A stretch of 24,459 bases of DNA from a virus. Location: the IMG/VR virus record IMGVR_UViG_3300025141_000719, positions 1 to 24,459 of that record; one strand, written 5' to 3'. How positions within the stretch are numbered: position 1 is the stretch's first letter; each line of letters starts with the position of its first letter. Made by a program: the position numbers and the translations under genes. Below, one piece after another: positions 1 to 24,459 of the stretch. The notes under the pieces are model-generated. The model was given only the letters and a program-made list of their open reading frames with translations, did not search any database and was not told the DNA's origin.

Positions 1-3000
1 GCGGAAAGGATGCGGGCGTGTTCGACCTGAACCTCTTTCAGTTCCTTGGTCTGCTCCGCTGTAAGTTCTACATCCTCCCAAGTGAACGCATCGAGGTCAG
101 TGGAGGAGGCGGTAATGCCGGAGGCTATTTGTTCGCCAACTCTTTCCGGCGTAATGCCCGAAGCTAGCTTTCTTCCTTCTTCGGGCTGGGGCGTGATCCG
201 CTGAAACCTCTCCCGCCGATCACGAACCCACGTTTGAACATCGGGTGTGAATCGGGGACTGGTTTCGAGGATAGAAGCTCCTTCAGGGTCGGACGCCCAG
301 TCGTGGTATCCGTATTCTCCGACGGTTGTGAAGTATTCTTGTTCTGTTTCATTACCAAATTCTCCAATTATTTTAGCATCCCATTCCGCGTCTGTCAACA
401 CAGGAAGCATGTTCATGTAGTCCATCTTGTAATTAACTACAATGATTTCATTGGCAGATATCTGAGTGAACCCGTAGTCAGAGTGGATCTTGCCGAGCCT
501 CTCTTGTATGTCTTGCAAGTCTTGCGCGTTAAGATCGTTAGCAAATTCCAACTTAACTCCTGCGGATTGCTCGCTTCCTTCGACAACGAACTCCCCCTTG
601 GTGGTGGCTACTCGTTCTACAGAATACTCCGCCTTGTTGGCTGCGAACGTGTCCGCTTCCTCGCGGGTTTTGAAGTTCCTTAATACTTTGCCGTTCTGGT
701 TCTTAACCTTGTAAACGACTTTCTCTTTACCTATGTCGGCGGCGTATTCTTCAGCCTTTTCCTGCGTGTCAAACTTCCGTATGGCCCCTGTATCCTTGTT
801 CACTACCCTGTAGTGGACATCCTGCTTCGTCTTCTTAATGAACCTAGCCCACGGCACGGCGTCTTGGGTAAAGATAAACTGGAGCGCCCGTGCGTAAGCG
901 CGGATGGCATCGTCATCATAAGTCCCCGCTGGTTTATTGGGGTAAAGGGTGGACAATACGTTCGGGGTCACGCCGCCTGCGTAGCCTCCCGTGGATATTT
1001 TCGCTGTGGAGATGGCGATGCCCAGTTCCTTTGCGAGGAGGTCTTCACCAGTCGTGGGGTCCACGATAAGCTCCATCGCCTGTGCAGTGAACGATAGCTT
1101 CTCGTCAAAAGACATGGCGTCTAATCGTTTTCCTACCTCCGTTTCTGTAGACGCAATCACCTCCCACGTTGCCAGCATCCCCATCGTGTTGACAAAGTAG
1201 TCAAAAGAGCGGGAGGCTTCCACGAAGTCAACTCCGGTGGCGGCCAATGCGTTTTCGGTCCAACGCCGCTGGTGCCTGCGCTCGGCATCTTTGTCGGGGA
1301 ACGAACGCTGTAGTTGCCCTCCCGCGCCCCGTTCGCGCACCATGTCCCCTTCCGCGATGCTCTCTGCTTCCGTCTTCTGCTTAACTTCCTTCTGCTCGGA
1401 GCGGGCCTTGATCGCAGTCCATACCATGGCCTGCACTTGGTGGGCCTCGTATCGGGGTTCCCCTTCCGCAAGGCTTTGATTCAAGGAGTAGGTGAGGCGG
1501 TTGATCATCTTCTCGGAAAACCCGAACGCCCCTTTCCCTTTCTCGTCGGTCAGCCCAATGGTGTCATACCCCATGGCCCTGTAGACCCACATGTCCACGG
1601 TGACGGGCTGTTGGATTTTTTCCAAGAACGCGGTGTCAATCCGCATGGATCTCAGTTGTTCCGGTGTCGCTTGTTGCACGATGTGGAACATGATGTTCTT
1701 GTAGAAATTGTCCGTTTTTCTTCCGGTCCAATCCCTGTTGTCGTAAAGAACAGCGCGGGCTTTGTTATCTTGAACGGCGGTTTTTACAGAGAAATCTCTA
1801 CGCGAGACGTTGTTAGCGTGTTGCTCGTAGGCCCGAACAGCAAAGTAAGTGTTCACTTCTACTCCAGTTTGCGGGGAGTAGATAGCTAACAGGGCGATTA
1901 ACTTCTCGGCCTCGACAACGTCGCCGTTGGTTATTTCGAGGATCTTCTCGGCGGCATCTTCATACCAGTAGCGGCCAACGGCACCTTCGACAGCGAGCTT
2001 CTTTACCTGTTCTTCCAGCTTCTCAACGTCCTCTTCTGTTGTGACGCGTGGCGGAGCACCTTTGAATTTACCATCGTTTGTCCGCAGGTATTCAAGGTCT
2101 TCAGGGAAGACACCGTCGAACTCAAAGTTACTGACCGTGATGGGGGGAACCGTGATCCCTGACGCAAGGGCCTCTTGTTCGTAGGGCACGTTAAGTATAT
2201 TATCGCGTCTCGCGATAAGGGTGTCGGCCATCTCGGTGCTCTCGGCACTCACTCCCATGACGCTCTCGACTGCCGACTGGATCGTCTCGCGAGTCATGTT
2301 GCGTAGCGGGGCCGCGCTATTCTGCAAGTCGCTGGCGGTCATGTCGTCGAACACCTCCGCCGCCGTCCCTCTCTCACGGAGCGTATCAAATTCAGAACCC
2401 TCCTCGTTCCAAGCACCGCCCTTCGGTTCGCCCTGCGCCCTGAACTCAAGTGCGCCACCCGTGTCCACATGAACCACGCGCCCTTCACCGTCAACCATGA
2501 GGTTGTCATACTCCAGCCCGACTACGTCCCAGTTGGCAAGCCAAGCGTGGATCGCGAAGTCAGGGTAGGCCGCCTTACGCATGGCCGGATCTTGTGGGTT
2601 GAACTCGGTGAGGTCTTCCTGCCACTCGGAGGCCGTCCCCAGAACGTCCTGCCCCGCTTCATTCTTGCCCGTTGTCAGGCGGAGCGGGAGGATATTCGCG
2701 CCTGCGGTCTCGTATAGGACCGTGGCCAGCACCTCGTTGCGGGCGTGTTCCGGTGATTGGCTTTCCTTGAAGTAGTATTTCTTGCCCGTGTCCCTGTCCT
2801 CATACAGGCCACCCATGTTGGAGCCTAGCTGCGGGCCGATCTTCTCCCAGTTGCGCCCGTCGAGAATGTTGCCCGCGTCCGCTGGAACCTGAACCGTGAT
2901 CCCTGAAGCCAGTGCAGGTTCGGCTTCCCTCGGCTCATCGGCCCGCTCGATGGGCTTGTTCATGTTCACCTGCTTCCTGAACTGCTCGATGACAGTCTCG

Positions 3001-6000
3001 GGGTTGTTCGGGTCGAACGGCTTGAGGTTTGTGGAGTGTCGGTAACCCGCCTCCAGCGCCCTGATCTCATTCACCATACGGTCAACCGCCGTCCTCATCT
3101 GGGGGCTTATGTCGCGGCGAGACCTGTAGTAGCCGAGCTTCTTCAGGAACCGTTGGAAGTAACGGATGATTTGTTGGACAAGGTTCGGGTTCCTGCGTAG
3201 GAACGCGATCTCCTCCTCGGTAGTGAAGCCCCTCGTTACCTTCTGGGCGTATTGCCGGAGCCTCTCCTCCACTATTTCACGCTGCGCGGCGGGGTCTCCG
3301 TTCCGCCACCCTTCAAGGAGACGCTCCCTGTTGCCTACGTTGCCCTCGTCGCCGTAGTTGCTCACGGTCTCCTCGGCGTCGGCGAAGGTCATTCCATTGA
3401 TAAGTTCGTCCCGCTCGGCCTTCGTGATCGTGGCTACCGAGGCCGCGTGTGCGATCTCCTCGTTCGCAATCACGGCGGTGATGTTCATCTGAGTCCGAAT
3501 GGAGAGGGGCCTGCCCCCGTTCATAGCCTGAAGTTCTTTCAACAACCCACCCAGTTCCAATGGGTTCACGACCAAGGTTCCAGTATTAGAGTCCACGGAC
3601 ATCATCGGCGGGACGACCATGTTCCCGTCCGCGTCCACCGACCGCTTGCTGGTATCAACCTCCATACGCATCTCGGGTGGCACGACGCGGTTTCTGATGA
3701 GTGACAGGAGTCGCTCCACGTTTTCCTGCCCGCGTTGCTGGGCACCAACGTCAACTCCGGTGGCCCCCTGCACGCCGGAAGAAAGTCTCACTGCTTCCTG
3801 CTGTGAACGGGAGACATCTTCCGCAACCTTGCCAACGATGGCGTCAACCGTCACTGGCTCCTTGGGGGCCGTGCTGGTGGTGGCGGGGTCCGTCGGAAAG
3901 ACGCTGTCCGCGACGAAGTCCTTCGCGGTGCGGGACTCCTTGTTTGGCAAGTTAAGAAACTCCTCCACACTAATCAGTTTGCGCCTGCTGCGGCGTCTCG
4001 CACCCGCTGCCAGAATAGAAGAATGCGACAGATCCAGAACGGCAGAGAACGCCGAGTCGAATTCAGGATTCGTCCCGCGAAAAAAGGCGCGGATGGCAGC
4101 GATGACTTGTTCAAATCTGCTGTATAGTGCTGGGGCTGCCCTGTCGGCCAGCATGGTCTTGACGAACTTCTGGAAGTCCTCAGACGTAAGAAAGTGTGCG
4201 ACGAACTCGTCCACGTTGGTGAGGGCATCATATACACGGGTGTCGTGATACTTATAGACCCCCATGTCGGGAACACTGCGAGTTGAAAAGATAGCGGGCG
4301 TTGTTTCTTGGTTCGACATCGCCTTGTAGTCTGCTCGAATGTCGGCGATCACCCCCTCCAGCACACCAATCGCGGCGGTCTCTTGGCGTGTCTGCGTGGC
4401 GGCTGGCTTTCTGGTGACGCCAGTCACATACGCGTGGATCAACTCGTGGACGAGCGTGTCGGCCACTCCCCTCGGGTTATGTCCGTTAATGTTTATTGAG
4501 ATAGCAGGGGTGCCGTCAGTCAATGTGTCGAACTTCCCAGCGTAGTTCAGGTCGGTCTCGTCAATCGACAACTCAATGCTCCTGATGAAGTCGGGTGACT
4601 GGAGCAGCAGTCGTGCGATGGACACGAGATGGGAGTCGTATTCCTTTTGGGCGCGGTCGGACACGCCGACGATCCGTTCTAGGGCCTCAATTATGGACTC
4701 GGGGTCTCCGTCTTTCAGGCCCAAGGCGGCGATGGCCTTCTTATTAATCTTCTGGTCATGGGCCTTGCTCATGCCCGAGGGCTGCGACCGGAGCAGCAAC
4801 GCCCCGACGGACCCACGAACATAGTTATGGAACGAAAATACTTCCGCATCTGACGGTTCGGCACCGCCCTTGAGGCCACGGATTTTGTCGCGGAGGAACG
4901 CACGGTAAGCTGCGTCGGTCTTGGGCGTCCCTTCCACGGACGCAGAGGACAACGCCATTAGTTGCAGAGCCTCCCTGACGGGATTACCCATTTCAAACCG
5001 CCGCCCTTTCAGGGCTTTCTGGAATTCAATGCTGGCCGGACTCGTCTTGTGGTTCCCCTGCGCCATCCACTGGACAACGTAACTCCACAGTCTTTTGGTA
5101 GAAGTCCTGTTGAAATCAATAGACGAGGTGTTGAACACTTCGTTCTGGACGAGGAGGACTACGCTCTGCCGCAGGTTGGAATCCCCGTCCAAGGCCGCGA
5201 CCGCGTCGGCGTGGGCCTCGTTGAGGAGATTGGATATGCCCGACTCGGGGAATGGTGGTGGGGCGTTCTCTGGGAATGGGGTGTAGGTATCTTCAACTTC
5301 AGATGCCGCGTTATAGTCGGGGTCTGCTTGAAGGTTAGCAGCTTCGTTCACCGACACCGACGCCACGAACGACTCCTTGGAGTGCTTGAGGCGGGCCGTC
5401 TGCTCGGCCATGTAAGTGTCGGCAACTTCTCGGCCAAGCCCAACGAGAGACACCTTGCCGTCAGTGAACAACGCTTCCTGCGCCCTGAGACGTAACTCTA
5501 TCTGGGCGGATTCAGCAAATTCAGGGGCGAGTTCCCCAGTGTTGGGGGCGACAAACTTATCAATACCGACTCCTTCTTCCAGTTGGGTCAGGACTTCTTG
5601 CGCGGTCATTTGCGTGTTCGGCTCAAACGGAGAGTCGATCATCGCATCCGGCTCCCTTAACCCTTCGTCGCGTAGCGTGAGCACCCGCTCGACTAAACTG
5701 ACAACCCGTGTGTAGTCCGGCTGGAGAACCAGAGCGCGGTCTGTGGGGGTGAGCGCGGACACGAGGCCACCGGACTCGGGGACCATGATGTCGGACACGA
5801 CCACGTTGTCACCGACACGAGCGAACCTGAACGCGGGGTTCAGGGTCGGGGAATCCAAATGGGCCGGATCGACAACAATGGGAGCGCCCGTCTCAAGGAG
5901 ACTGAGCATGGTGAGTGGGTCGTTGTTGAACTGTCCGCGACCGACCCTGTCCAAGAATACCTTCCCGCGACCGTATGCCGAGTCGAGAGCCATCCCGCCT

Positions 6001-9000
6001 TCTGGGGGGGTCACAGGGATTCTTGGGAACCGCGCCTCTACCTCTGAAGCTATCCGGTCATTGGCAGAACGAAGGAAAGCCGCAGACGTTGTCTGCTCAG
6101 TGATGGGAACACCCAGCTTCCTGAGCTTGGCGGCGGTCAACATATGCGGGTAGCCCCCTTCGATAAGAGCCTCAACGCGAGATACCACGGACGGGTCTTC
6201 GGTTACCTCCTCCAGTTCTACTGTCTGTTCAACCTTGAGGTCTTTCAAGGCGAGGACGCGGTCCTTGAATGCCTCGCCCCTTAACTCGGTAGCTTGTTCT
6301 GGGCTTACGGCCTTGCCCTCACGGACCCGCTGCTCCAGCGCCCGTCGGACGGAGGATTCGCCAGCGACTTCAGCCCCCGCCACCTGTTGATCCATCTTCT
6401 TGTAGAGGGCCTCGGCCTCGTCGATCTGCCGGACAGTTTCCCTGAACCCGACTTCAATCGCCTCGGCCTCTTCGGCGCGGGCGGGGTTGATGATGGTTTT
6501 CTTTTTAGGCGGGCGGGTTCCTTCAAATACGTCAGGCTCCACGCCTTCGGTGCGGCGAGGAATTAAATTACGCACCGCTTGGTGGTCCGAGTTTTCGAGT
6601 GCGCCAGCTTCCTGAATCGGCAACTCCAGTTGGTGCATCAGGTTCCCCTTGGACTCCACGGTCGTCGGGTCAGCCCCAGCAACAGCCGGAACGCTGCTGC
6701 CGAGAACATTGTTCACGGCCCTTGCGGCGGAGTCGGGGTTGACTTTCTCCTCAAGCAACGCCTCCATTTCTGGGTCCGGTGTTATGCCGGACGGGAGTTG
6801 TGTTCCTTCTCCGGTGGCTTCCGGCTCCCCCCTCCCAAGCTCGGCCTCCTGTTCTTCAAGAGACGGGACCACGGATGCCCGTGCGTCTTTCCGCCGCATG
6901 TCGGACACTACCATGTTAACATATTGTGCAGTTAACGGAGCACCGTTCGCGGTAAGATCTGCGGACATCTCCTCCAGAACATCTTCGTAGAATGAAGTCT
7001 TTTCCCGTTCCCGTAGAACGTCTGGTTGCAGGGCGCGGAAGGTTTTTTGGACGAGGGGCACGGCCCCGCCCATAATCCCGCCCAAGACGAACGCGTGCCA
7101 AGTCTGCTGGAGACGCTCCAGCATGGGGGTGTCCTCGTGCAGAGCCGCGTCAGTAACAAGCCCGTTGACGAACTCGTCGATGCTCTCCTCGATGCCCTCG
7201 TCGAATACACTTTTGGCCAGCCCCTTGACCCCACCAAATGAGTATTTCTTCATCGTCGTCTTGATCGCTTTCTGCGCTGCGCTCAAGAAGTCACCCCCCA
7301 GTTTGCCTGTGATCTCCTCACCCGCTCTTTTCATCTGCTTGTAGCTGAGACCCTTGAGCAGGGCGTCCTCCATACCCCCGCGCCCGATAGTAGAGAACCC
7401 CGCCGTGAGAACTCCAGTGAACGTGCCCGCCATGAGCATGGCTCCGAGCGCCCTGTCATGGGCATCCTCCTCGGAAACGTCGGGGTCTTGCTTCAGTTGA
7501 TTGTAGACGGCTCCGTAAGTTGCCGACCCAGAACGGGTGGCAGCCGGAATGAAGATGGCGGGGAGGTTGCCCAAGTGGGCGGAAAGTTTACTGTTATAAG
7601 CATTGAGGATATCAATCGCGCCCTCCTTCGACCCCTTGATCATGCTAGCCGCGAGCAAGTCTTCAGCCTGATCAGCGGTGGACTTGGCTCCAGTCTTCCT
7701 AAACACGTTGGAAGTGATCGACTTGAACATACCCTTGGCGGTCATGCTGGCCGTGGCGGTTCCGCCAGCCTTGAGGGATGCGTAGGCCACACCACCAGCA
7801 CCGCCAGCAGGGGCGGTCGCGGCTGCGAGGAGGGTAGTCGCAGCGATGTCAATCAGCATGGGGAACGCGGTCTCGGTAGCATCTTGGAGGAGGCCAAACT
7901 CCACCCCGAAGACGGAGGCAAGTTGGCGGCGATCTGCGTTCTTCTGGCTGACCGAAGCCAAGTAATCTTGCGCCGGATCGAACCCGAACGCGGCTGGAAT
8001 AGCGGCGAACATCTGACCGACCCCATTCAAAAATGACATGCCAACTCCGGCAGCCCTCTCGGCGAACTCGTTGTAGTTGTCCTTGTCCGCAACGAACCCC
8101 TCAAGGATCTTGTAATCCTCCACGCCTGCGGTTCGCCCAACGATAAGAGCCTTGCTCCACTCATCGGACACGTTTGAGCCGTAGTCCGACAGGAACTTGT
8201 CAAGCTGAGTGAACTCGGATCGAAGGTGCGCGATGCGCTGCTTGTTAAGCATGGTTTTAACTTCTTCACTAAGCTCGGGGTTTGCTGCGAGGGTCTTGTC
8301 GAAGACATCCTTGTTGACCATCGCCTGCATCGACATGGTCGGGAGGCCGTAACCCCCTATCCGCAAATTCTTGCCCACATCGTCGTCGTCCTCGTCGTGG
8401 AACTCGAACATTTGCTTGTTGACCGCGTTGTCGAGAACCATCTGCTCAACCGCAAGCTCCATGTCTTCGGGGCGCAAGTCGAACTTGAGGGCATACTTCG
8501 CCGCTATCTGTCGAATGTCGGACCCCCGTGCCTCGTTTACCGCCTCACGGCGGGCCTCCGCCTTGTCGATGTCTTCCCCCTGACCCATGATGTGGCCAAA
8601 GAAATTTTTAAGCCCACGCCCAAGGTTGTCAGCCTTGTGCTCCAACCAATCCATCGTGCTATACTCGGACTGGGCGGCTTCCGTGGAGAGTCCGTCGATC
8701 TGAATGTTGAAATCCTCGTTCTGCTGGCGCTCCACTTCAAGGAGTCTGGTAGCCCGTGCCAGTCTCTGGATGCGATACAGCGGGATACTGAACCCGTCGG
8801 GTGTGTCTAGCTGCGCCTGTGCGGCCAGCGCATCCCCCATCGTAACGCCCCCCTCGGATGACACCTTGATCGCGTCTACGAGATCCATCCGTGCGGCGGC
8901 TTCACCTACGATAAGTTGGCCGTTCGACAGGCGGGCCATCGGCAATTCGCCTGCGTCTACCTTGACTTGCAGTAGTTGGTCCCGATTCCTGTTTACTACG

Positions 9001-9425
9001 TCGTCAGCCTTTTCGCGTAACGGTTGCAGTTCTTCAGCATATTCGGGGGAAGGCGACTCAACGGCAGCCGCAAAATACTTGTCCAACGTCTGCTGATCTT
9101 CGCTGTGTTCTGGCAGGCTCTGCTGGAAGGTGCGGGCGAGTTGGTCGAATGTCTTGCCCCTCTGGATGTCCGCCATGCGCTGCTCCAGTTCTCCCGCGTT
9201 CGCGCCGTCCGGTTCAAGTAGCCCGCCTGCCTGTAGCGACTCGGCGAACCCTTTCCTGATCCCTCCCTCGACGGCGGGAGTATACGCATCTGCCCTGATG
9301 TATTCCTCGCGGAGGTAATCCCCGAACTTTAACCTGCTTTCCAGCGGGTCGTCGTAGGCGTTTTCAGTAGACCACTCGGAGAACCCGAGGGGGTTGACGG
9401 TTGGGGTATCAGTTTGATCTGGCAT
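1..9425 (-). CDS. Giant multi-domain phage protein (polyvalent / ejected virion protein type), C-terminus beyond window
   Basis: A single frame stays open from ATG at 9425 to the left edge, giving at least 3141 residues; the stop lies outside. Blocks seen: N-terminal region with Gly/Ala-rich hydrophobic stretches near residues 522-542, 660-680 and 777-793; Glu/Arg-rich helices to about 1000; a zincin site HELIH at 1660-1664 with a likely third ligand E1740; a second degenerate site (EEIAH, 1989-1993); a kinase-like domain about 2190-2400; an HhH-GPD-like domain about 2430-2680; two 33-residue repeats at 2871-2935. Five [LI][AP]SGIT motifs sit in linkers. Phages are known to carry such polyvalent proteins, thought to enter the host with the DNA; ejection here is inference from size, domain mix and position after virion-type genes. 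No convincing Shine-Dalgarno precedes the ATG, which lies 31 bp after the upstream stop. The several-hundred-base antisense frames inside it are shadows. Confidence 0.9.
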   Translation of the reverse strand, partial: MPDQTDTPTVNPLGFSEWSTENAYDDPLESRLKFGDYLREEYIRADAYTPAVEGGIRKGFAESLQAGGLLEPDGANAGELEQRMADIQRGKTFDQLARTFQQSLPEHSEDQQTLDKYFAAAVESPSPEYAEELQPLREKADDVVNRNRDQLLQVKVDAGELPMARLSNGQLIVGEAAARMDLVDAIKVSSEGGVTMGDALAAQAQLDTPDGFSIPLYRIQRLARATRLLEVERQQNEDFNIQIDGLSTEAAQSEYSTMDWLEHKADNLGRGLKNFFGHIMGQGEDIDKAEARREAVNEARGSDIRQIAAKYALKFDLRPEDMELAVEQMVLDNAVNKQMFEFHDEDDDDVGKNLRIGGYGLPTMSMQAMVNKDVFDKTLAANPELSEEVKTMLNKQRIAHLRSEFTQLDKFLSDYGSNVSDEWSKALIVGRTAGVEDYKILEGFVADKDNYNEFAERAAGVGMSFLNGVGQMFAAIPAAFGFDPAQDYLASVSQKNADRRQLASVFGVEFGLLQDATETAFPMLIDIAATTLLAAATAPAGGAGGVAYASLKAGGTATASMTAKGMFKSITSNVFRKTGAKSTADQAEDLLAASMIKGSKEGAIDILNAYNSKLSAHLGNLPAIFIPAATRSGSATYGAVYNQLKQDPDVSEEDAHDRALGAMLMAGTFTGVLTAGFSTIGRGGMEDALLKGLSYKQMKRAGEEITGKLGGDFLSAAQKAIKTTMKKYSFGGVKGLAKSVFDEGIEESIDEFVNGLVTDAALHEDTPMLERLQQTWHAFVLGGIMGGAVPLVQKTFRALQPDVLREREKTSFYEDVLEEMSADLTANGAPLTAQYVNMVVSDMRRKDARASVVPSLEEQEAELGRGEPEATGEGTQLPSGITPDPEMEALLEEKVNPDSAARAVNNVLGSSVPAVAGADPTTVESKGNLMHQLELPIQEAGALENSDHQAVRNLIPRRTEGVEPDVFEGTRPPKKKTIINPARAEEAEAIEVGFRETVRQIDEAEALYKKMDQQVAGAEVAGESSVRRALEQRVREGKAVSPEQATELRGEAFKDRVLALKDLKVEQTVELEEVTEDPSVVSRVEALIEGGYPHMLTAAKLRKLGVPITEQTTSAAFLRSANDRIASEVEARFPRIPVTPPEGGMALDSAYGRGKVFLDRVGRGQFNNDPLTMLSLLETGAPIVVDPAHLDSPTLNPAFRFARVGDNVVVSDIMVPESGGLVSALTPTDRALVLQPDYTRVVSLVERVLTLRDEGLREPDAMIDSPFEPNTQMTAQEVLTQLEEGVGIDKFVAPNTGELAPEFAESAQIELRLRAQEALFTDGKVSLVGLGREVADTYMAEQTARLKHSKESFVASVSVNEAANLQADPDYNAASEVEDTYTPFPENAPPPFPESGISNLLNEAHADAVAALDGDSNLRQSVVLLVQNEVFNTSSIDFNRTSTKRLWSYVVQWMAQGNHKTSPASIEFQKALKGRRFEMGNPVREALQLMALSSASVEGTPKTDAAYRAFLRDKIRGLKGGAEPSDAEVFSFHNYVRGSVGALLLRSQPSGMSKAHDQKINKKAIAALGLKDGDPESIIEALERIVGVSDRAQKEYDSHLVSIARLLLQSPDFIRSIELSIDETDLNYAGKFDTLTDGTPAISININGHNPRGVADTLVHELIHAYVTGVTRKPAATQTRQETAAIGVLEGVIADIRADYKAMSNQETTPAIFSTRSVPDMGVYKYHDTRVYDALTNVDEFVAHFLTSEDFQKFVKTMLADRAAPALYSRFEQVIAAIRAFFRGTNPEFDSAFSAVLDLSHSSILAAGARRRSRRKLISVEEFLNLPNKESRTAKDFVADSVFPTDPATTSTAPKEPVTVDAIVGKVAEDVSRSQQEAVRLSSGVQGATGVDVGAQQRGQENVERLLSLIRNRVVPPEMRMEVDTSKRSVDADGNMVVPPMMSVDSNTGTLVVNPLELGGLLKELQAMNGGRPLSIRTQMNITAVIANEEIAHAASVATITKAERDELINGMTFADAEETVSNYGDEGNVGNRERLLEGWRNGDPAAQREIVEERLRQYAQKVTRGFTTEEEIAFLRRNPNLVQQIIRYFQRFLKKLGYYRSRRDISPQMRTAVDRMVNEIRALEAGYRHSTNLKPFDPNNPETVIEQFRKQVNMNKPIERADEPREAEPALASGITVQVPADAGNILDGRNWEKIGPQLGSNMGGLYEDRDTGKKYYFKESQSPEHARNEVLATVLYETAGANILPLRLTTGKNEAGQDVLGTASEWQEDLTEFNPQDPAMRKAAYPDFAIHAWLANWDVVGLEYDNLMVDGEGRVVHVDTGGALEFRAQGEPKGGAWNEEGSEFDTLRERGTAAEVFDDMTASDLQNSAAPLRNMTRETIQSAVESVMGVSAESTEMADTLIARRDNILNVPYEQEALASGITVPPITVSNFEFDGVFPEDLEYLRTNDGKFKGAPPRVTTEEDVEKLEEQVKKLAVEGAVGRYWYEDAAEKILEITNGDVVEAEKLIALLAIYSPQTGVEVNTYFAVRAYEQHANNVSRRDFSVKTAVQDNKARAVLYDNRDWTGRKTDNFYKNIMFHIVQQATPEQLRSMRIDTAFLEKIQQPVTVDMWVYRAMGYDTIGLTDEKGKGAFGFSEKMINRLTYSLNQSLAEGEPRYEAHQVQAMVWTAIKARSEQKEVKQKTEAESIAEGDMVRERGAGGQLQRSFPDKDAERRHQRRWTENALAATGVDFVEASRSFDYFVNTMGMLATWEVIASTETEVGKRLDAMSFDEKLSFTAQAMELIVDPTTGEDLLAKELGIAISTAKISTGGYAGGVTPNVLSTLYPNKPAGTYDDDAIRAYARALQFIFTQDAVPWARFIKKTKQDVHYRVVNKDTGAIRKFDTQEKAEEYAADIGKEKVVYKVKNQNGKVLRNFKTREEADTFAANKAEYSVERVATTKGEFVVEGSEQSAGVKLEFANDLNAQDLQDIQERLGKIHSDYGFTQISANEIIVVNYKMDYMNMLPVLTDAEWDAKIIGEFGNETEQEYFTTVGEYGYHDWASDPEGASILETSPRFTPDVQTWVRDRRERFQRITPQPEEGRKLASGITPERVGEQIASGITASSTDLDAFTWEDVELTAEQTKELKEVQVEHARILS
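111..128 (-). repeat. IASGIT linker motif, copy 5
   Basis: Residues 3100-3105, followed by ASS. It starts 13 residues after copy 4, so the two form a double motif before the C-terminal part that leaves the window. Confidence 0.65.
150..167 (-). repeat. LASGIT linker motif, copy 4
   Basis: Residues 3087-3092, followed by P. Codons differ from copies 2 and 3 although the peptide is the same. Confidence 0.7.
618..815 (-). repeat. Two tandem 33-residue protein repeats in the giant protein
   Basis: Residues 2871-2935. The two units share Y-x-V-x-N, then G-x-[IV/L]-R-x-F-x-T-x-E-x-A-[ED]-x-[YF]-A-A. Y2872 aligns with Y2905, F2885 with F2918 and A2891 with A2924, each exactly 33 residues apart. 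The pattern suggests a small beta-beta-alpha repeat. Function is unknown. Confidence 0.7.
1386..2138 (-). other. HhH-GPD glycosylase-like domain inside the giant protein
   Basis: Residues about 2430-2680. Three segments fall in the order seen in endonuclease III-type glycosylases: LLAIYSPQTGVEVN around Q2519 (compare LLSAQATDVSVN), TGRKTDNF at 2567-2574 (compare the hairpin GVGRKTANV), and VTVDMWVYRAMG with D2611 (compare AVDTHIFRV, where the Asp is catalytic). No C-terminal Cys cluster is evident. The same block recurs in other giant phage proteins as a domain of unknown function, to my recollection. Glycosylase activity is inference from motif order. Confidence 0.45.
2151..2168 (-). repeat. 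LASGIT linker motif, copy 3
   Basis: Residues 2420-2425, followed by VPP. It lies between the kinase-like and HhH-GPD-like domains. Confidence 0.7.
2226..2858 (-). other. Kinase-like domain (HipA / PI-kinase-like fold) inside the giant protein
   Basis: Residues about 2190-2400. A glycine-containing beta-hairpin (MGGLYEDRDTGKKYYFKE) ends in K2220, a likely ATP-binding Lys, followed by a helix with Glu (NEVLA). The catalytic-loop-like segment NWDVVGLEYDNLMV carries D2300 and N2308, and VHVDTGGAL carries D2321 where kinases have the metal-binding Asp of DFG or DxG. The loop plus 'H-hydrophobic-D-x-G' resembles HipA and PI3/4-kinase-type active sites rather than classical protein kinases. The substrate is unknown. 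Consensus linkers lie just before (2172-2177) and just after (2420-2425). Confidence 0.6.
2895..2912 (-). repeat. LASGIT linker motif, copy 2
   Basis: Residues 2172-2177, followed by V. It lies directly before the kinase-like domain. It shares 16 identical bases with copy 3 (tcagggatcacggttc on the minus strand). Confidence 0.7.
3066..3548 (-). other. Second peptidase-like domain with degenerate HExxH
   Basis: Residues about 1960-2120. NEEIAHAA at 1988-1995 resembles a zincin helix, but the first His of HExxH is replaced by Glu. A following EERLRQYAQ segment and a Glu/Arg-rich helical tail are of the type found after such sites in phage proteins. It may be an inactive or structural copy, or a helix with chance similarity. 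I call it only as a degenerate site. Confidence 0.4.
4146..4628 (-). other. Zinc metallopeptidase (zincin) domain inside the giant protein
   Basis: Residues about 1600-1760 of the giant protein. The motif HELIH is at 1660-1664, preceded by a beta-strand-like segment and followed by AYVTG, as in phage zincins. About 76 residues later, NVDEFVAHFL supplies a plausible third zinc ligand, E1740; this spaced Glu in a 'DEF.A' context recurs in large phage proteins. Zinc binding and proteolysis are inferred from the motif. A substrate is not visible; the protein's own repeated linkers are one candidate. Confidence 0.75.
6780..6797 (-). repeat. LPSGIT linker motif, copy 1
   Basis: Residues 877-882 of the giant protein (LPSGIT followed by P). 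It lies after the hydrophobic N-terminal region, in an acidic Gly/Pro-rich linker. Confidence 0.65.
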
Positions 9426-18500: not shown

Positions 18501-20276
18501 ATGAAAATCTACGCCCTCGATTTTGAAACCTACTACGACAAGCGTTGCAGCATCAGGACGCTCGGCCCACTGGGATACTTCTCCCATCCCGAATTCGACG
18601 CCTACCTGCTCACCGCAAAAGGAACCGACGGCATGGAGTTCGTCGGCCACCCCAAAGAGTTTAACTGGAATTTACTAATTGGTAATACGGCCCTGAGCCA
18701 CAACGCAGCATTTGATGAAACCTTATATTTATATGGCGCGACCCAATCGTGGTGGCCGGAAATCACGCCCGTCGCGTGGCATTGCACGGCGGATCTGGCA
18801 GCGTATTGCCGCCTTCCTCGCTCGCTCAAGGGAGCGACTCATACAGCTTTTGGATTAGAAATCGACAAGACCACCCGCGACAACATGAGCGGGAAGAGGT
18901 GGGAGTCGATGACCGACGAGTTCAGAGCCGAGGTCAGTGCTTATGCGATCAAAGACTCCGAGCTTTGCCTTCGCCTGTGGGAAGAGTTCGGTGACCGCTG
19001 GCCAGAGGAAGAAAGAATAATCAGCACCCTGAACCGGAGGATCTGTCAGAGAGGAATCCCTATCGACACGGACCTCCTGAAGAAGCAACTGGAGACCATC
19101 AACGAGAAGTTGTTTGAGGCCGAGTCCAATATCCCGTGGCTCGGAAGCAAACCTCTCCTTAGCCGCGCTGCGTTTGACGAGGAGTGCCAGAAGGTAGGAC
19201 TGGAGCCGCCTGCGAGTCTGGCGAAGACCAACCCCGAGAGCAGGAAGTGGATCGAATATAACAGCCAGAAGCACGACTGGATCGAGGCCACTCAGAACTG
19301 GAGAAGGATCAACGCCCTCAAGAAAAAGGTGGAGAGCTTCGATGTGGCTACCATGCCAGACGGTAGATACTACGGCGGCTGCATGTATTTTGGGGCGCAC
19401 ACAGGGCGCTTCAGTGGAAGCGGAGGAAACCTGAACCTTCAGAACCTGCCGCGTGACGAGATGTTCGGGATCAACCTCCGTAACCTCATAGCTACAAAAG
19501 AAGATAAACGATTAGTGGTAGCCGACTTGAGCCAGATCGAAGTCCGAACATTGTGCTGGCTCGCGGAAGACAAGGAGATGCTTAAAGAAATTGAAGCTAC
19601 CGATGATATCTATGAGGCTTTTGCGATTCGGTTCCATAGGTGGAAAAAAGAAAACGGCCCCCTTAAACAAGACCCCAAACTCAGACATAAGGTAAAGGCC
19701 ATGGTTCTAGGTTGCGGATACGGGGCGGGTAAGAAACGGTTTGCTGAGATGTCAGGTATGGATAAATTTGAAGCGGATGCGGCTGTTGATCGTTACCGAC
19801 GAACGATGGGAAGTGTGGTCCGCTTATGGAAAAAATATAACATAGATATAAACGGAGCCTACAATCTGTCAGAACAGGGAATGCCCACACCATTCACGGT
19901 GGATCTGCCAAGCGGACGGGTGCTGGACTACGGTCTGATTTCGGCGGACAAGGTTGAAGGGGGCCGGACACAATACACAGCCCACTTCCCCAAGGGGGCC
20001 AAGATGATCCCCATCAAATTGTGGGGTGGCTTCATAGCTGAGAACGCATCACAAGCTCTGGCCCGAGATATTTTTTCAGACATGCTTGTCAGGGTGGCCG
20101 ACGCGGGGCATAACGTCATCATGCACGTTCACGATGAAATCGTGGTGGAGGCGGACGCTGACAAAGCGGACACCGTGCTCGAAGACATCTTGAAAATTAT
20201 GTCTACCCCACCAAAATGGATCGCTGACATCCCGCTAGCCGCTGAAGGGGCGATACTAACCCGATACACAAAATGA
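18501..20276 (+). CDS. polA: Family A DNA polymerase with 3'-5' exonuclease
   Basis: 591 residues; replicates the phage DNA. The exonuclease begins at the very N-terminus: D7 and E9 (LDFET), D72 (SHNAAFD), Y148/D152 (YAIKD). Polymerase motif A is VVADLSQIEVR with D342; motif B is R395-x3-K399-x3-L403-x3-Y407 (RHKVKAMVLGCGYG); motif C is VHDE with D545. There is no 5'-3' exonuclease domain, as usual for phage PolA. Position 403 corresponds to E. coli Pol I Phe762 and is Leu here, a variant common among viral PolA. The start fits because the exo I motif is at residue 7. The stop overlaps the primase-helicase start (ATGA). Confidence 0.95.
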   Translation: MKIYALDFETYYDKRCSIRTLGPLGYFSHPEFDAYLLTAKGTDGMEFVGHPKEFNWNLLIGNTALSHNAAFDETLYLYGATQSWWPEITPVAWHCTADLAAYCRLPRSLKGATHTAFGLEIDKTTRDNMSGKRWESMTDEFRAEVSAYAIKDSELCLRLWEEFGDRWPEEERIISTLNRRICQRGIPIDTDLLKKQLETINEKLFEAESNIPWLGSKPLLSRAAFDEECQKVGLEPPASLAKTNPESRKWIEYNSQKHDWIEATQNWRRINALKKKVESFDVATMPDGRYYGGCMYFGAHTGRFSGSGGNLNLQNLPRDEMFGINLRNLIATKEDKRLVVADLSQIEVRTLCWLAEDKEMLKEIEATDDIYEAFAIRFHRWKKENGPLKQDPKLRHKVKAMVLGCGYGAGKKRFAEMSGMDKFEADAAVDRYRRTMGSVVRLWKKYNIDINGAYNLSEQGMPTPFTVDLPSGRVLDYGLISADKVEGGRTQYTAHFPKGAKMIPIKLWGGFIAENASQALARDIFSDMLVRVADAGHNVIMHVHDEIVVEADADKADTVLEDILKIMSTPPKWIADIPLAAEGAILTRYTK

Positions 20277-22432
20277 CCTACCGCTATATTGAAAATCTAC
20301 GCAGTGCCGCCGCAAGGAAGACCGCCGACCTTTCCAAATTCAAACCTTCCGTCCCGCCGTTTTCTTCCAAGGCGGAATACAGGGCGTGGTGCGCGGATAC
20401 AAAAACCAAACATGTATTTTATTCCACGGTCGAGGGACGCGCCCCATCAAAACGGGTGTCCTCCGAGAACCCCACCAACAAAGTCTACGGCATCGTAGCG
20501 GACTACGACGCGCCCGTGAACTGGAGTCTGGTGGACGGGAAGATAGCAACCATCTGCACGAATAACCTGCCGACATGGAGGTCAAAAACCTACAGCGGGT
20601 ATATCCGACTGGTCTGGGAATTCGCAGAAGCGATCCCCGTGCCACCGGACATGTTTGCCGCGTTTGTCGAGGAGATGAAGAAGATCCTGAAGCTGAACAA
20701 AATCTTCGCTGGCTTCGACGAGACCTCACTAAACCCGTCGCAGTATTTTGAGTTAGGGTCTGACTGGCACAAGATTGGGACGCCCTTACCCAAATCAGTC
20801 ATCCACACGGCTTTTCTTAAAGCCGCCGAGACCAGCCCACCGCAATCTGGGGACACCGCCATCCCTATTGATGTTGTTGCAGAGAAAGTAAGATCCGACT
20901 ATGGGCATCGATGGGTGGGTCCATTTGAAGTCGGAAGCAGGGGGCCACTGTTCTGGATCGACGATGGGATCGACCGTGAAGGTTGTCAGGTTACAGATGA
21001 CGGGATGATCTGCTACAGCGACAGGGCGGGGCGCGGATTCGTATCGTGGCGGGACATCTTTGGCCCGTCCTTTGTTGAAGAGTATGAGCAGAAGAAGCTC
21101 GGCGCTCTCCTCGACGAATACTGGTTCAACGGGAAGCGGTTCTTCAAGCTGTTGAATAACATCGCCGTTGAGATACCAAGGGACCAACTCGTTTTGGAAC
21201 TCAGGCAAATGGGCTTCTGCCCGAAACAGAAAAGGGGTAAACCCCTGTCGGAGGTTGAATCTGCGATCCTCGTTATCAGCAACCAGAACCGCATCACGGA
21301 GATTGCTCCAGTGGTCTTCTCAAAAGAACGGGTGGTGGAGGAGAGCGGTAACCGTATTCTCAATACATCAACCATCGAGCCAGTGGAACCTGCGGACGAC
21401 GGAGACCCCACACACTGGCCCTTCCTCTACGCATGGTTACACCAACTCTTTGAAAACTCCACGCCTCGCCCCACCCTAGAATACTTCTTGGCGTGGATGA
21501 AGAGATTCTACGAAGCACTATTGGACCGAGAGGCAAGGCAAGGACAGGCGCTGATTCTCGTGGGGCCAACTAACAAAGGCAAAAGCCTATTGTCTAACAG
21601 AGTTATCTCCGGCCTCGTGGGCGGTTTTTCCGATGCGTCTGATTACCTGTCAGGCCATACAAAGTTCAACAAGGATCTGGGCCGCGTAGCCGCGTGGGTC
21701 ATCGACGACACGACGAGTGCCAGTTCTTTTCAAGACCAGCGGAAAGCAACCGAACTCATCAAGCGGGCGGTGGCGAACCCCCGCATCGAGTATATGGCGA
21801 AGTATGCAGACTCCATCTCAATTCCGTGGGCGGGGCGGGTAATCATGTCACTGAACATGGACGCCAACAGCTTATCCGTGATACCCGCCCTTGACAGTAG
21901 CAACCGTGACAAGCTCATGGCCTTAAAAGTAAGTGATTTTGCCACGAGCAACTTCCCGCCCAACAAAATGCTGGAAGCCACAATCAAGACGGAACTCCCC
22001 TTCTTCGGGAAGTGGCTGCTGGACTGGGTGGTCCCCCAAGAAATTGAAGCCTACGGTCGCTTTGGCGTGGTTAGCTTCATCGACATCTCAGTATCGTCAG
22101 CCGCTTACGACAACTCATCCCGCTCGGCAGTAGCGGAACTGGTTGAGTTCTTCGCCAAAAAGTGCCGCGCATTGAACGACACACTGAAAAGCTGGGAAGG
22201 AACCCTGACAGAATTTCAAGTCACGCTGCACGACTTCAATAACGGGCGCAACGTGGGCATGTCGAACAACCTTGAATTCGTCCGGCGTGGAATGTCCGCG
22301 CTGGAAGAAGCAGGGAAAGCCAACCCAAATATCCGCCCAATTAGATCAGCGGGACGGGGAGGCGGGAAAGTCTGGACAGTAAACATAGAGGCACAATTCG
22401 ACATCATCCCCGCCACAGTGACGGTGTCATAG
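20273..22432 (+). CDS. Primase-helicase (AEP-like primase plus SF3/D5-like helicase)
   Basis: 719 residues, overlapping polA by ATGA. The N-terminal third looks like an archaeo-eukaryotic-type primase: VYGIVADYDAP with D77 and D79 as the metal-binding DxD, followed by NPSQYFELGSDWH around 155-165. The C-terminal half has an ATPase with Walker A GPTNKGKS at 431-438 and Walker B WVIDDT with D478/D479, then a sensor-like VIMSLNMDAN and RDK region, as in SF3/D5-type helicases. It would prime and unwind DNA for the adjacent PolA. The last six bases overlap the convergent nuclease-like gene. The assignment of the second primase motif is tentative. Confidence 0.85.
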   Translation: MTYRYIENLRSAAARKTADLSKFKPSVPPFSSKAEYRAWCADTKTKHVFYSTVEGRAPSKRVSSENPTNKVYGIVADYDAPVNWSLVDGKIATICTNNLPTWRSKTYSGYIRLVWEFAEAIPVPPDMFAAFVEEMKKILKLNKIFAGFDETSLNPSQYFELGSDWHKIGTPLPKSVIHTAFLKAAETSPPQSGDTAIPIDVVAEKVRSDYGHRWVGPFEVGSRGPLFWIDDGIDREGCQVTDDGMICYSDRAGRGFVSWRDIFGPSFVEEYEQKKLGALLDEYWFNGKRFFKLLNNIAVEIPRDQLVLELRQMGFCPKQKRGKPLSEVESAILVISNQNRITEIAPVVFSKERVVEESGNRILNTSTIEPVEPADDGDPTHWPFLYAWLHQLFENSTPRPTLEYFLAWMKRFYEALLDREARQGQALILVGPTNKGKSLLSNRVISGLVGGFSDASDYLSGHTKFNKDLGRVAAWVIDDTTSASSFQDQRKATELIKRAVANPRIEYMAKYADSISIPWAGRVIMSLNMDANSLSVIPALDSSNRDKLMALKVSDFATSNFPPNKMLEATIKTELPFFGKWLLDWVVPQEIEAYGRFGVVSFIDISVSSAAYDNSSRSAVAELVEFFAKKCRALNDTLKSWEGTLTEFQVTLHDFNNGRNVGMSNNLEFVRRGMSALEEAGKANPNIRPIRSAGRGGGKVWTVNIEAQFDIIPATVTVS

Positions 22433-22986: not shown

Positions 22987-23286
22987 TCAAATCGCTTGAA
23001 AGCGTTTAATGAATCTTTCCCATGCAGGAAAATAGATCTCGTCCATGCACCTCACTATGGCCTCTTCTTCGTAGGTCTCACAAAACGAGAGCCCTGAAAT
23101 ACCTAAAGCCGCATGGAGCATCTCGTGCCTAATTGTGTCATGGAGGTCTTTCCCCTTGAGGGTCTTGTCTATCGTGATGAGCTTCCTCCTGTGGGAATAC
23201 ATCCCATAGCAATCATCATCCCCTAAATCCCCCAACCGGATTCGGACCCGAACCCCAGCCATGGTTATACTTTGGGGGACTTTCAT
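22987..23286 (-). CDS. Small HExxH metallopeptidase-like protein
   Basis: 99 residues. HEMLHAAL places the zinc motif HExxH at 54-58, and YEEEAIVRCMDEI with E74/E75 offers the third ligand, as in minimal ImmA/IrrE- or SprT-like proteins found in phages. No DNA-binding domain is attached. The start overlaps the amidase stop by four bases; a GGAGG lies directly against the ATG, too close to be ideal, so start M9 is an alternative. Its place in a lysis operon gives no clear substrate; cleavage of a host or phage regulator is the family-based guess. Confidence 0.75.
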   Translation of the reverse strand: MKVPQSITMAGVRVRIRLGDLGDDDCYGMYSHRRKLITIDKTLKGKDLHDTIRHEMLHAALGISGLSFCETYEEEAIVRCMDEIYFPAWERFIKRFQAI

Positions 23287-23858
23287 CCTCCGGTAAGCTT
23301 GATGAGGGCACGGGCATAGACACCGGCCAGTTTATCACGGTTGTCATTAATCATCCGCCATTCGGCTTCGTTAGATCCAAAGAAAGGTTCCGCGATAACG
23401 GCAGGGCAATGTGTCTTACGTAAGAAAGCGGACCCCCGCTGGCGGGGGCCGCGTGGTTTAATCCCTCTGGAGGCCATGTCAGGGTAGGACTCTTCCATCG
23501 AATCGCGTAGCGCCGTGGCTAGCCGCTTACCACCAACACTTGTGGGCCAATACAGCCACTCATGGCCTTTGGCAGACGGGCTCGCGGAATTAAAGTGCAG
23601 CTCAATCGCCGCAGTGACCTCGTCTTCGCGCATCGTTCGGGCAATATAGTTGATCGCTCCGGTGTAGCTCTGCGCGGGGTATTTGTCATAGATGACGTAG
23701 TTATTACCGCTAGCCCATCCATGACTGTTGCTTAGTACATGCCCGATGCGGCGCACAAGATCGCGGTTAAAGTCCCACTCGCTGACAACATATTCCCCAT
23801 ACGTGTACGCTCCCTGATCCCCGAGACGTGAATGCCCCACACATAGTCCAATCTTCAT
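23283..23858 (-). CDS. Endolysin, N-acetylmuramoyl-L-alanine amidase (Amidase_3)
   Basis: 191 residues; should cut the amide bond between MurNAc and L-Ala of the peptidoglycan stem. Zinc ligands fit H9 (VGHS), E27 (SEWDFN) and H88 (IELHFNS); the catalytic Glu is E157 in IAEPFFGSN. The protein consists of the catalytic domain alone with no wall-binding module and no signal peptide, so it would need a holin for release; the upstream neighbour (23855-24019) has the right features. Start ATG overlaps that gene's stop (ATGA). Confidence 0.9.
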   Translation of the reverse strand: MKIGLCVGHSRLGDQGAYTYGEYVVSEWDFNRDLVRRIGHVLSNSHGWASGNNYVIYDKYPAQSYTGAINYIARTMREDEVTAAIELHFNSASPSAKGHEWLYWPTSVGGKRLATALRDSMEESYPDMASRGIKPRGPRQRGSAFLRKTHCPAVIAEPFFGSNEAEWRMINDNRDKLAGVYARALIKLTGG

Positions 23859-24019
23859 TTCTTTAAAACGCGATACAGGGACACAAGTCCCACAGTAATA
23901 CCCACAATAAGCGACCCAACGCGCAGCCAGTATTCAAACTGCTCCTGCATGCTGGTGATAAGACCCAGCGTGGGAGCCGCCATGCCGACTAACGAGTCTA
24001 TGAATCGGGGGTTTATCAT
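23855..24019 (-). CDS. Holin-like small membrane protein
   Basis: 54 residues, ATG 24019 to TGA 23855. The C-terminal half holds one clear membrane segment (VGSLIVGITVGLVSLY, about 34-49) followed by a basic tail RVLKK; a milder hydrophobic stretch covers 9-23. It overlaps both neighbours by ATGA and lies directly upstream of the amidase, the usual place for a holin that releases the endolysin. Size and single segment fit a small class of holin, but sequence alone cannot prove pore formation. Confidence 0.7.
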   Translation of the reverse strand: MINPRFIDSLVGMAAPTLGLITSMQEQFEYWLRVGSLIVGITVGLVSLYRVLKK

Positions 24020-24303
24020 TTCTCCCCGATGATGACGGCCCTCCGGTAACTGTAATCCGAATGGAAGCGGTGACCTTTACGACCAACCAGTGCTCCTTCC
24101 TTAAACTCGTAGACCTTACCCTCTTTAAGCGTGATCGTCGGAGGATCGTATAGGGCGCTCGCGTTCGCGCTTGATGCGTTGGGCAACTCGTTCCATGAGC
24201 AGCTTGTCAGCGGGAGAACCGCCAGCGGCCAGAGCATCAAGACGATCTTCAAGAGCGTCGAGGTGCCTGTCTCTTTGAAGCCTGATGTGTTCGATGTAGG
24301 CAT
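24016..24303 (-). CDS. Small lipoprotein, possible outer-membrane spanin subunit
   Basis: 95 residues from ATG 24303. A hydrophobic signal (LLKIVLMLWPLAVLPL) ends in the lipobox LTSC with C35, giving a mature lipoprotein of about 60 residues with a C-terminus (FHSDYSYRRAVIIGEK) of a type seen in small phage lipoproteins. A TTG or ATG further down, at the hydrophobic core, could be the real start. It overlaps the 71-residue gene out of frame for about 180 bp, as Rz1-type genes do with Rz. It lacks the Pro-rich body typical of Rz1, so the spanin role is tentative. Confidence 0.7.
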   Translation of the reverse strand: MPTSNTSGFKETGTSTLLKIVLMLWPLAVLPLTSCSWNELPNASSANASALYDPPTITLKEGKVYEFKEGALVGRKGHRFHSDYSYRRAVIIGEK

Positions 24304-24340
24304 GGAGCGCGGCAGTCAGCAGTTGGAAAAAGAGCTTCAC
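24125..24340 (-). CDS. Short helical protein, possible inner-membrane spanin partner
   Basis: 71 residues from GTG 24340. The first 17 residues (KLFFQLLTAALHAYI) are hydrophobic but short and contain His/Tyr, so membrane insertion is uncertain. The rest is a charged helix (RLQRDRHLDALEDRLDALAA) likely to be a coiled coil, ending in a basic tail. The GTG overlaps the upstream gene's stop (GTGA). An N-terminal anchor plus coiled coil, overlapped by a lipoprotein gene in another frame, is the layout of an i-spanin; alternatively a cytoplasmic lysis-accessory protein. Confidence 0.6.
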   Translation of the reverse strand: MKLFFQLLTAALHAYIEHIRLQRDRHLDALEDRLDALAAGGSPADKLLMERVAQRIKRERERPIRSSDDHA

Positions 24341-24459
24341 TTAGATTTCGCACGGCCCACATTCAGGGCTAGCCACGACACCACGCGATTTATGCGATTC
24401 ACCCAAATGTTATCCGATTCATTCGGGGTCATGGTCGCAATGAGTGAAGCCACAGCGAT
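24337..24459 (-). CDS. C-terminal part of a small lysis-operon protein, N-terminus beyond window
   Basis: The frame is open from the right edge to TGA at 24337-24339 and encodes the last 40 residues, including TPNESDNIWVNRINRVVSWL and ending LNVGRAKSK. It resembles the tail of small phage proteins that follow holin or membrane-anchor segments, with a Thr-Pro/Asp-rich turn and an amphipathic helix. The GTGA overlap with the next gene supports it being coding. Too little is visible to assign function. Confidence 0.6.
   Translation of the reverse strand: MAVASLIATMTPNESDNIWVNRINRVVSWLALNVGRAKSK

Follow-up and report, generated by a model that had tools for sequence, protein, structure and literature searches.

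An overlapped lipoprotein gene pair in the lysis cassette of a marine phage, proposed to act as a spanin-like module with an amphipathic inner partner

At one end of the viral DNA analysed here (IMG/VR record IMGVR_UViG_3300025141_000719, positions 1 to 24,459, hereafter the window), which comes from a marine virus infecting bacteria, one stretch of DNA is read in two frames to encode a 71-residue protein and a putative lipoprotein of 95 residues, and the pair so formed is a unit of the lysis module. The leading explanation, in terms of a function that we infer, is that the pair works like a spanin. A more specific form of this explanation, an overlapped two-component spanin-like lysis module whose inner partner would owe its membrane attachment to an amphipathic helix and not to a TMD, stands in our estimation at about even chances.

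The gene pair and its dual coding

The two genes and the segment that they share lie as follows.

24125..24340, minus strand: ORF of the 71-residue protein (X, or a1), candidate inner partner; open ORF with a GTG start
24016..24303, minus strand: ORF of the 95-residue lipoprotein, candidate o-spanin; open ORF with an ATG start
24125..24303, minus strand: dual-coding overlap of 179 bp, from codon-position diversity and stop counts

A sequence-only reading of the window had described two ORFs sharing about 180 bp in different frames, and the description holds: the lipoprotein starts 37 nt inside the gene for the 71-residue protein and is read in its +1 frame. With the lipoprotein as query, viral contigs yielded 65 loci, or 66 rows with the window, of which 60 carry the full pair and five are cut by contig ends. 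The remaining one (L032, 6-326, at a contig end) was left out as a frameshifted hybrid, in which the N terminus of the 71-residue protein is fused to the C terminus of the lipoprotein, probably through an assembly or sequencing error. The position of the GTG codon (-37) and the relative frame are identical in 60/60 full pairs (46 distinct at the DNA level), the pair is retained in relatives with as little as about 40% identity, and both proteins were found at offset 1 in each of the 31 distinct pairs listed from profile searches, which are mostly more distant.

Stops were counted in the overlap of 45 of the 46 distinct sequences, one with an N having been dropped. They are absent from the lipoprotein frame (0/45), occur once in the frame of the 71-residue protein (1/45, a slightly shorter copy) and interrupt the third frame in every sequence (45/45). 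At lipoprotein codon position 3, site diversity is 0.506 outside the overlap but drops to 0.23-0.24 within it, and the part that codes for the 71-residue protein only shows a position-3 peak of its own (0.46), the diversity by codon position being that of a single coding frame on either side of the overlap and of two-frame constraint within. It could be argued that one of the frames is open by chance, since free ORFs as long as this are not very uncommon: the other frame was open in 6.6-9.6% of the trials when the lipoprotein was resampled synonymously. Retention in all 60 copies and a codon-position pattern that indicates coding in both frames, however, refute this explanation, to which we attach next to no probability. 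Both frames are under selection and, as the spanin-like layout suspected at the outset presupposes, both are conserved.

The lysis cassette and its variation

The pair belongs to a minus-strand series at the window end that runs from gene A through the 71-residue protein, the lipoprotein, gene C, an Amidase_3 endolysin and a HExxH protein to a 178-residue protein, with a 4-nt overlap at every junction from gene A to the HExxH gene except the one within the pair. The neighbours of the pair, followed by two larger features of the window, are listed below.

24337..24459, minus strand: gene A, of which only the 3' end lies in the window; open ORF with one TM segment and a K/R-rich C terminus, candidate holin
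23855..24019, minus strand: gene C, a 54-residue single-TM protein (dG -1.41), holin or antiholin candidate
23283..23858, minus strand: endolysin, N-acetylmuramoyl-L-alanine amidase (Pfam Amidase_3, 8.6e-16; phrog_435 endolysin, 5.9e-31)
22987..23286, minus strand: HExxH protein, conserved next cassette gene by gene order (phrog_1233, 8.2e-11, function unassigned)
3-9425, minus strand: giant open frame of 3141 residues, running off the window
20273-22432, plus strand: DUF5906/DNA-primase-like protein

The holin-like and amidase neighbours originally noticed are thus both present, the former as the 54-residue product of gene C, which gave no confident family match among the PHROGs, Pfam and NCBIfam profiles. 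The cassette is a holin-endolysin one in which the window's holin is assigned by position only. Gene A, which in full encodes 59 residues in relatives (a full-length example lies at 4788-4967 of L003), matches phrog_9685, a profile without assigned function.

We surveyed 83 distinct loci picked for carrying both genes of the pair, with gene orders that cover only the genes sought. The commonest arrangement (43/83) is gene A, 71-residue protein, lipoprotein, gene C, amidase and HExxH protein; another 19 loci have the same order with a 101-residue TM protein after the lipoprotein, and the remaining orders involve an inserted basic protein or contig-end cuts. Throughout, the pair stays intact while the surrounding genes come and go. 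Four distant loci (L202, L203, L205 and L206) present the order gene C, Phage_holin_10, 71-residue protein and lipoprotein, followed by the amidase, with a basic protein between lipoprotein and amidase in one of them. In L205, where a 330-residue ORF also precedes the amidase, the Phage_holin_10 protein (PF23987, 5.3e-16) lies directly upstream of the pair and fills the gene A slot. Because the cassette order is kept and a Phage_holin_10 protein can take the place of gene A, the pair is to be regarded as a unit of the lysis module, and gene A is likely, by this replacement, to be a holin. In L003 (6734-7297) and L059 (6611-7204) an extra gene follows that of the HExxH protein; its product, which looks like a phage lysozyme by a motif, is absent from the window.

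The 101-residue protein (phrog_8909) carries one N-terminal TM segment in type II orientation.

L054 5282-5587; L059 5276-5578; G008 near 1988-2260: 101-residue protein

It was picked out from a list of possible type II proteins that is mostly noise and served this end only. It follows the lipoprotein in 21 of the 83 distinct loci and is mobile, lying elsewhere in some genomes; of 14 records searched, 7 did not show it, five of these being 61-68 kb long. As a candidate for the true i-spanin it was rejected because its presence is not constant. The same protein enters another account, which we deem improbable, whereby the 71-residue protein would be an antiholin-like lysis regulator on the cytoplasmic face and the lipoprotein would work alone or with either gene A or the 101-residue protein. 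The amphipathic, highly charged and TMD-less character of the 71-residue protein (see below) would suit such a regulator, as would the 21 loci just mentioned. So would the classification of the K1-5, K1E and SP6 spanins as separated by Kongari et al. (PMC6139136), since it implies that the i-spanin of those phages is probably not the overlapping gene. However, the 101-residue protein was not found in half of the records searched, the positive charge of gene A lies mostly after its TM segment and is scant ahead of it, which suggests an N-out orientation, and neither of these two putative partners explains the constant +1 overlap with the lipoprotein.

The lipoprotein and the N terminus of its partner

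Three further features, all within the pair, bear on how each protein would be attached to a membrane.

24199..24210, minus strand: lipobox LTSC, lipoprotein residues 32-35, from the sequence; putative mature protein of 61 residues from Cys35
24025..24150, minus strand: conserved C-terminal domain of the lipoprotein (YDPPTITL...RRAVIIG), from invariant columns and AlphaFold2 strands 56-92
24278..24337, minus strand: predicted N-terminal amphipathic helix, residues 2-21 of the 71-residue protein (dG +3.28, muH 0.40, KD19 1.01)

The LTSC motif from which the lipoprotein was first recognized is preceded in the window by a hydrophobic core, as expected of a lipoprotein signal, and has a counterpart in 79/79 distinct pairs (LASC, IASC, LQSC, LTSC, IVSC, LVSC or LSAC), with a predicted mature length of 60-63 residues. 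The conserved C-terminal domain lies mostly outside the overlap and is predicted to form beta strands; the AlphaFold2 model is weak overall (63.7), with a small set of strands and block means of 70-87 from residue 51, and the residues invariant across 56 sequences include C35, D53-P54-P55, G74-R75, Y84 and R88. Unimolecular spanins need a C-terminal TMD (PMC6139136), and no combination of lipobox and C-terminal TMD was found in the window lipoprotein, the best dG segment of which is the signal peptide (17-37). The unimolecular spanin gp11 of T1 is an outer-membrane lipoprotein, as proposed for the window protein, but differs from it by the C-terminal TMD that it needs.

The presence of a putative lipoprotein makes a Gram-negative host plausible. 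The lipoprotein is carried by three MAG contigs, two of them from an Acidimicrobiaceae MAG and one from a Blastopirellula MAG; since two of the three equal in length IMG/VR contigs already among the loci, and since the bins disagree, they were given no weight for the host; the binning of these contigs (L217, L218 and L219) into MAGs of different phyla is a sign of binning contamination. A second spanin pair was sought by a six-frame lipobox scan of the records of four relatives, which is non-exhaustive, having missed the LQSC of G008's own pair. In G002 it returned the lipoprotein of the pair and nothing else, and in G007 and G008 a single weak candidate per record. The 66.8-kb relative G001 (L222) encodes at 55194, on the minus strand, a second credible lipoprotein of 72 residues with the lipobox VSSC, unrelated to the pair.

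The 71-residue protein had been described as N-anchored and helical. It is indeed helical according to AlphaFold2, with helices at 2-40 and 43-61 (pLDDT 82.6), and its invariant residues across 59 sequences include A10, L12, A14, D32, G41, R51, R55 and R58. The usual inner-membrane anchor, the lack of which had been named in advance as an argument against a spanin pair, did not stand, at least in the form of a canonical TMD. For comparison we assembled the inner subunits of 13 control phages (lambda, T7, P2, T4, phiKMV, AF, Saba, Rivra, Niamh, PdC23, JS26, A18P4 and LPPA15), of which 11 carry a spanin or Rz-type name ("Rz1-like" for phiKMV) and two unnamed ones, Rivra 25 and LPPA15 28, were picked by position. 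On an approximate dG scale, the 59 distinct homologues of the 71-residue protein range from +1.11 to +4.80, all beyond the range of the controls (-3.13 to +0.05). Maxima over 19 residues on the Kyte-Doolittle scale are 0.56-1.43 for the homologues (n=59) versus 1.35-3.12 for the controls (n=13), and hydrophobic moments are 0.19-0.54 versus 0.11-0.27 for the same sets, the homologues being related sequences on which statistical tests are non-independent. A count that makes no use of dG parameters places one to four polar or charged residues among the most hydrophobic 15 positions in 59/59 homologues, against none in 13/13 controls. By dG, Kyte-Doolittle and polar-residue count, no canonical TMD was found in the 71-residue protein or its 59 homologues. 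The window protein has three polar residues within this 15-residue core and a polar strip along its N-terminal helix (Q6, T9, H13, E17 and R20). Because polar or charged core residues occur in every homologue and in no control, the N terminus is read as an amphipathic helix and not as a clean TMD.

These figures bear directly on the proposal made in the sequence-only reading, namely that the 71-residue protein is an ordinary type II i-spanin, N-in and C-out, whose weak N-terminal segment crosses the membrane. Its slot and overlap are those of overlapped i-spanins, a class in which proteins of 80-90 residues occur, and the partners of SP6-like phages described below are nearly TMD-like; dG, Kyte-Doolittle maxima and core polar residues nevertheless all argue against a crossing segment, and we hold this proposal to be unlikely.

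Neither protein matches a spanin family in the PHROGs, Pfam or NCBIfam profiles, PDB searches of both by sequence and by fold gave chance matches only, and no credible direct relative of either was found among annotated phages (best chance match, E = 1). The remark that neither sequence is a standard spanin was therefore sound, and no paper describing the pair was found in the open-licence literature. Known spanins have a combined periplasmic length of 62-300 residues (Kongari et al. 2018, PMC6139136), and the window pair, at about 110 (about 50 + 61), falls within this range if the 71-residue protein is periplasmic. The i-spanin is the longer subunit in 489 of 528 known systems (PMC6139136), an order reversed in the window, where the lipoprotein (95 residues) exceeds its partner (71 residues). 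At least one periplasmic cysteine, a feature that is not strictly defining, is reported for 507 of 528 known systems (PMC6139136); the window pair has no cysteine beyond Cys+1. Across the 79 distinct pairs, the mature lipoprotein contains such a cysteine in 28 and none in 51, and the last 55 residues of the partner are free of cysteine in 78. The pair thus presents the lipoprotein, overlap and length features of spanins and fails on the TMD. Because of this failure under the published criteria, which, as PMC6139136 itself points out, leave other membrane anchors out of consideration, we have not filed it as a two-component spanin. The same survey reports about 13% of its Gram-negative phage genomes as without a recognisable spanin, and 31 genomes in which a lipoprotein has no nearby type II partner (PMC6139136).

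Recurrence of the layout and a proposed mode of action

The layout recurs downstream of gene A homologues in other phages. We scanned 87 gene A neighbourhoods, comprising 80 viral loci out of a larger number (some of the window's own family) and seven isolate or reference records, for a downstream pair of partner and out-of-frame lipoprotein, either other frame being allowed. A pair is present in 43 of the 87, among the matches listed and the seven records, and the frame is +1 in all 39 distinct gene A-linked pairs listed; no pair passed the filter in the other 44 neighbourhoods examined, which include both Rhizobium phages and a Synechococcus phage. The partners, of kinds mutually unrelated in sequence (window, Ayaqvirus, L280, L309, LUZ100, CGphi29 and phiARM81mr), have dG values of +0.62 to +4.34, some starts having been over-extended by the script. 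Their lipoproteins match Rz-like spanin profiles clearly in LUZ100 (phrog_1275, 1.6e-12), CGphi29 (phrog_8971, 5.9e-9) and L309 (8.5e-13), and more weakly in the Ayaqvirus type (0.012, phrog_456, and 0.0028) and phiARM81mr (0.0018). The window pair occupies the same lysis slot as these lipoproteins.

In Pseudomonas phage LUZ100, gp37 is a gene A homologue (phrog_9685, 4.3e-9) and gp38 is the +1 lipoprotein; between them, an unannotated 78-residue ORF overlaps the gene A stop by 4 nt with its GTG start, overlaps gp38 (at L212 2695-3037, OP329100 20275-20617) and encodes an amphipathic protein (dG 1.68, muH 0.46), both proteins of the pair being unrelated in sequence to those of the window. The authors of LUZ100 screened its ORFs for membrane signals and report having been unable to annotate any spanin equivalents (PMC10134795); by profile match, the phage nevertheless encodes a spanin-family lipoprotein with an overlapping partner. 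Salicola phage CGphi29 (SLPG_00043-00045) and Ayaqvirus S45C18 (BAQ94256-94255 and an unannotated lipoprotein) likewise combine a gene A homologue, an amphipathic partner and a +1 lipoprotein, annotated as Rz-like spanin in the former, with sequences unrelated to the window's; in Ayaqvirus, gene A and the pair are located next to capsid genes. When dual coding was tested on 15 distinct loci of the Ayaqvirus type, the partner frame was open in 15/15 and had a position-3 peak of its own, both ahead of the overlap and where it begins; the lipoprotein frame had stops in 10/15, a count given no weight because the span counted includes sequence upstream of the lipoprotein start.

SP6-like phages (SP6, PSK8, ULINTec6 and UAB_phi78) share with the window a small TM protein, a 69-73-residue partner overlapping its end and a +1 lipoprotein, which in PSK8 is annotated as Rz-like spanin (phrog_8971, 1.3e-37). 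They differ in a partner nearer a TMD and an upstream endolysin, and in sequence they showed no resemblance to the window pair. In SP6 itself, gp47 is followed by gp48 and then by a lipoprotein ORF that is unannotated and lies in the +1 frame of gp48 (L334 3121-3381, NC_004831 39620-39880), gp48 being borderline, with a dG of 0.77 and one polar core residue, a point in favour of the ordinary i-spanin discussed above. The partner of ULINTec6 matches the SP6-like partner family phrog_9219 at 1.5e-30, and those of CGphi29 and phiARM81mr match it weakly (0.014 and 0.0071). Because the SP6-like partners are nearly TMD-like, the partner families are treated as a continuum, graded by predicted anchor from near-TMD to frankly amphipathic. 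In the classical systems of lambda (Rz/Rz1), T7 (18.5/18.7) and P2 (LysB/LysC), too, the lipoprotein gene comes second in a +1 out-of-frame overlap located within or close to the lysis genes; unlike the window pair, they have an inner subunit with a clean TMD (dG -2.29, 0.05 and -3.13) that is longer than the lipoprotein, and in sequence they gave no match to that pair. The Rz/Rz1-like layout perceived in the initial reading is upheld, as are the lipobox, the lysis-cassette setting and the conservation of both frames.

Recurrence bears as well on the suggestion that the lipoprotein is an envelope protein, acting for example in superinfection exclusion, that merely rides in the lysis operon. 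It has no sequence link to any spanin family, and its conserved C-terminal domain looks folded, unlike lambda Rz1; but the syntenic lipoproteins of other phages match Rz-like spanin profiles and beta-sheet character is reported in some o-spanins (Kongari et al., PMC6139136), so that we give this suggestion little credence.

As a spanin-like module, the pair might operate as follows. The lipoprotein would be exported, lipidated at Cys35 and sorted to the outer membrane, its conserved C-terminal domain facing the periplasm, and the 71-residue protein would be the partner on the inner-membrane side, two helices of which the first 20 residues would lie in the membrane surface without crossing it. 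On inspection of its N terminus the endolysin has no evident export signal, and the holin must therefore open a large hole, which could also let the 71-residue protein out. Once the holin had opened the inner membrane and the amidase had cut the wall, both proteins would span the gap between the two membranes and break up the outer one. Against such a module, with the odds about level as stated, stand the lack of spanin profile or fold matches and of a TMD, the size order, the scarcity of cysteines and the 44 of 87 neighbourhoods without a pair; moreover, the 71-residue protein could have no contact with the lipoprotein if it lay on the cytoplasmic face.

A bolder and clearly less probable reading, which we put forward tentatively, is that these partners represent a third anchor type of two-component spanin, with an inner subunit that lacks a TMD and uses a monotopic amphipathic helix. 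Such a subunit may even remain in the cytoplasm, as the endolysin does, until the holin lesion gives it its sole route to the periplasm; there it would attach to the membrane and join the outer-membrane lipoprotein. If true, this third type would be widespread, extending over the window type, Ayaqvirus, LUZ100, CGphi29, phiARM81mr and, as a borderline case, SP6, and would explain some phages filed as spanin-less or as having a lipoprotein without an i-spanin. If the pair does function as a spanin although its partner has no TMD, part of these gaps would be owed to a search rule that demands a TMD, not to biology. The layout is present in the culturable phages LUZ100 and SP6, which makes the idea open to bench testing.
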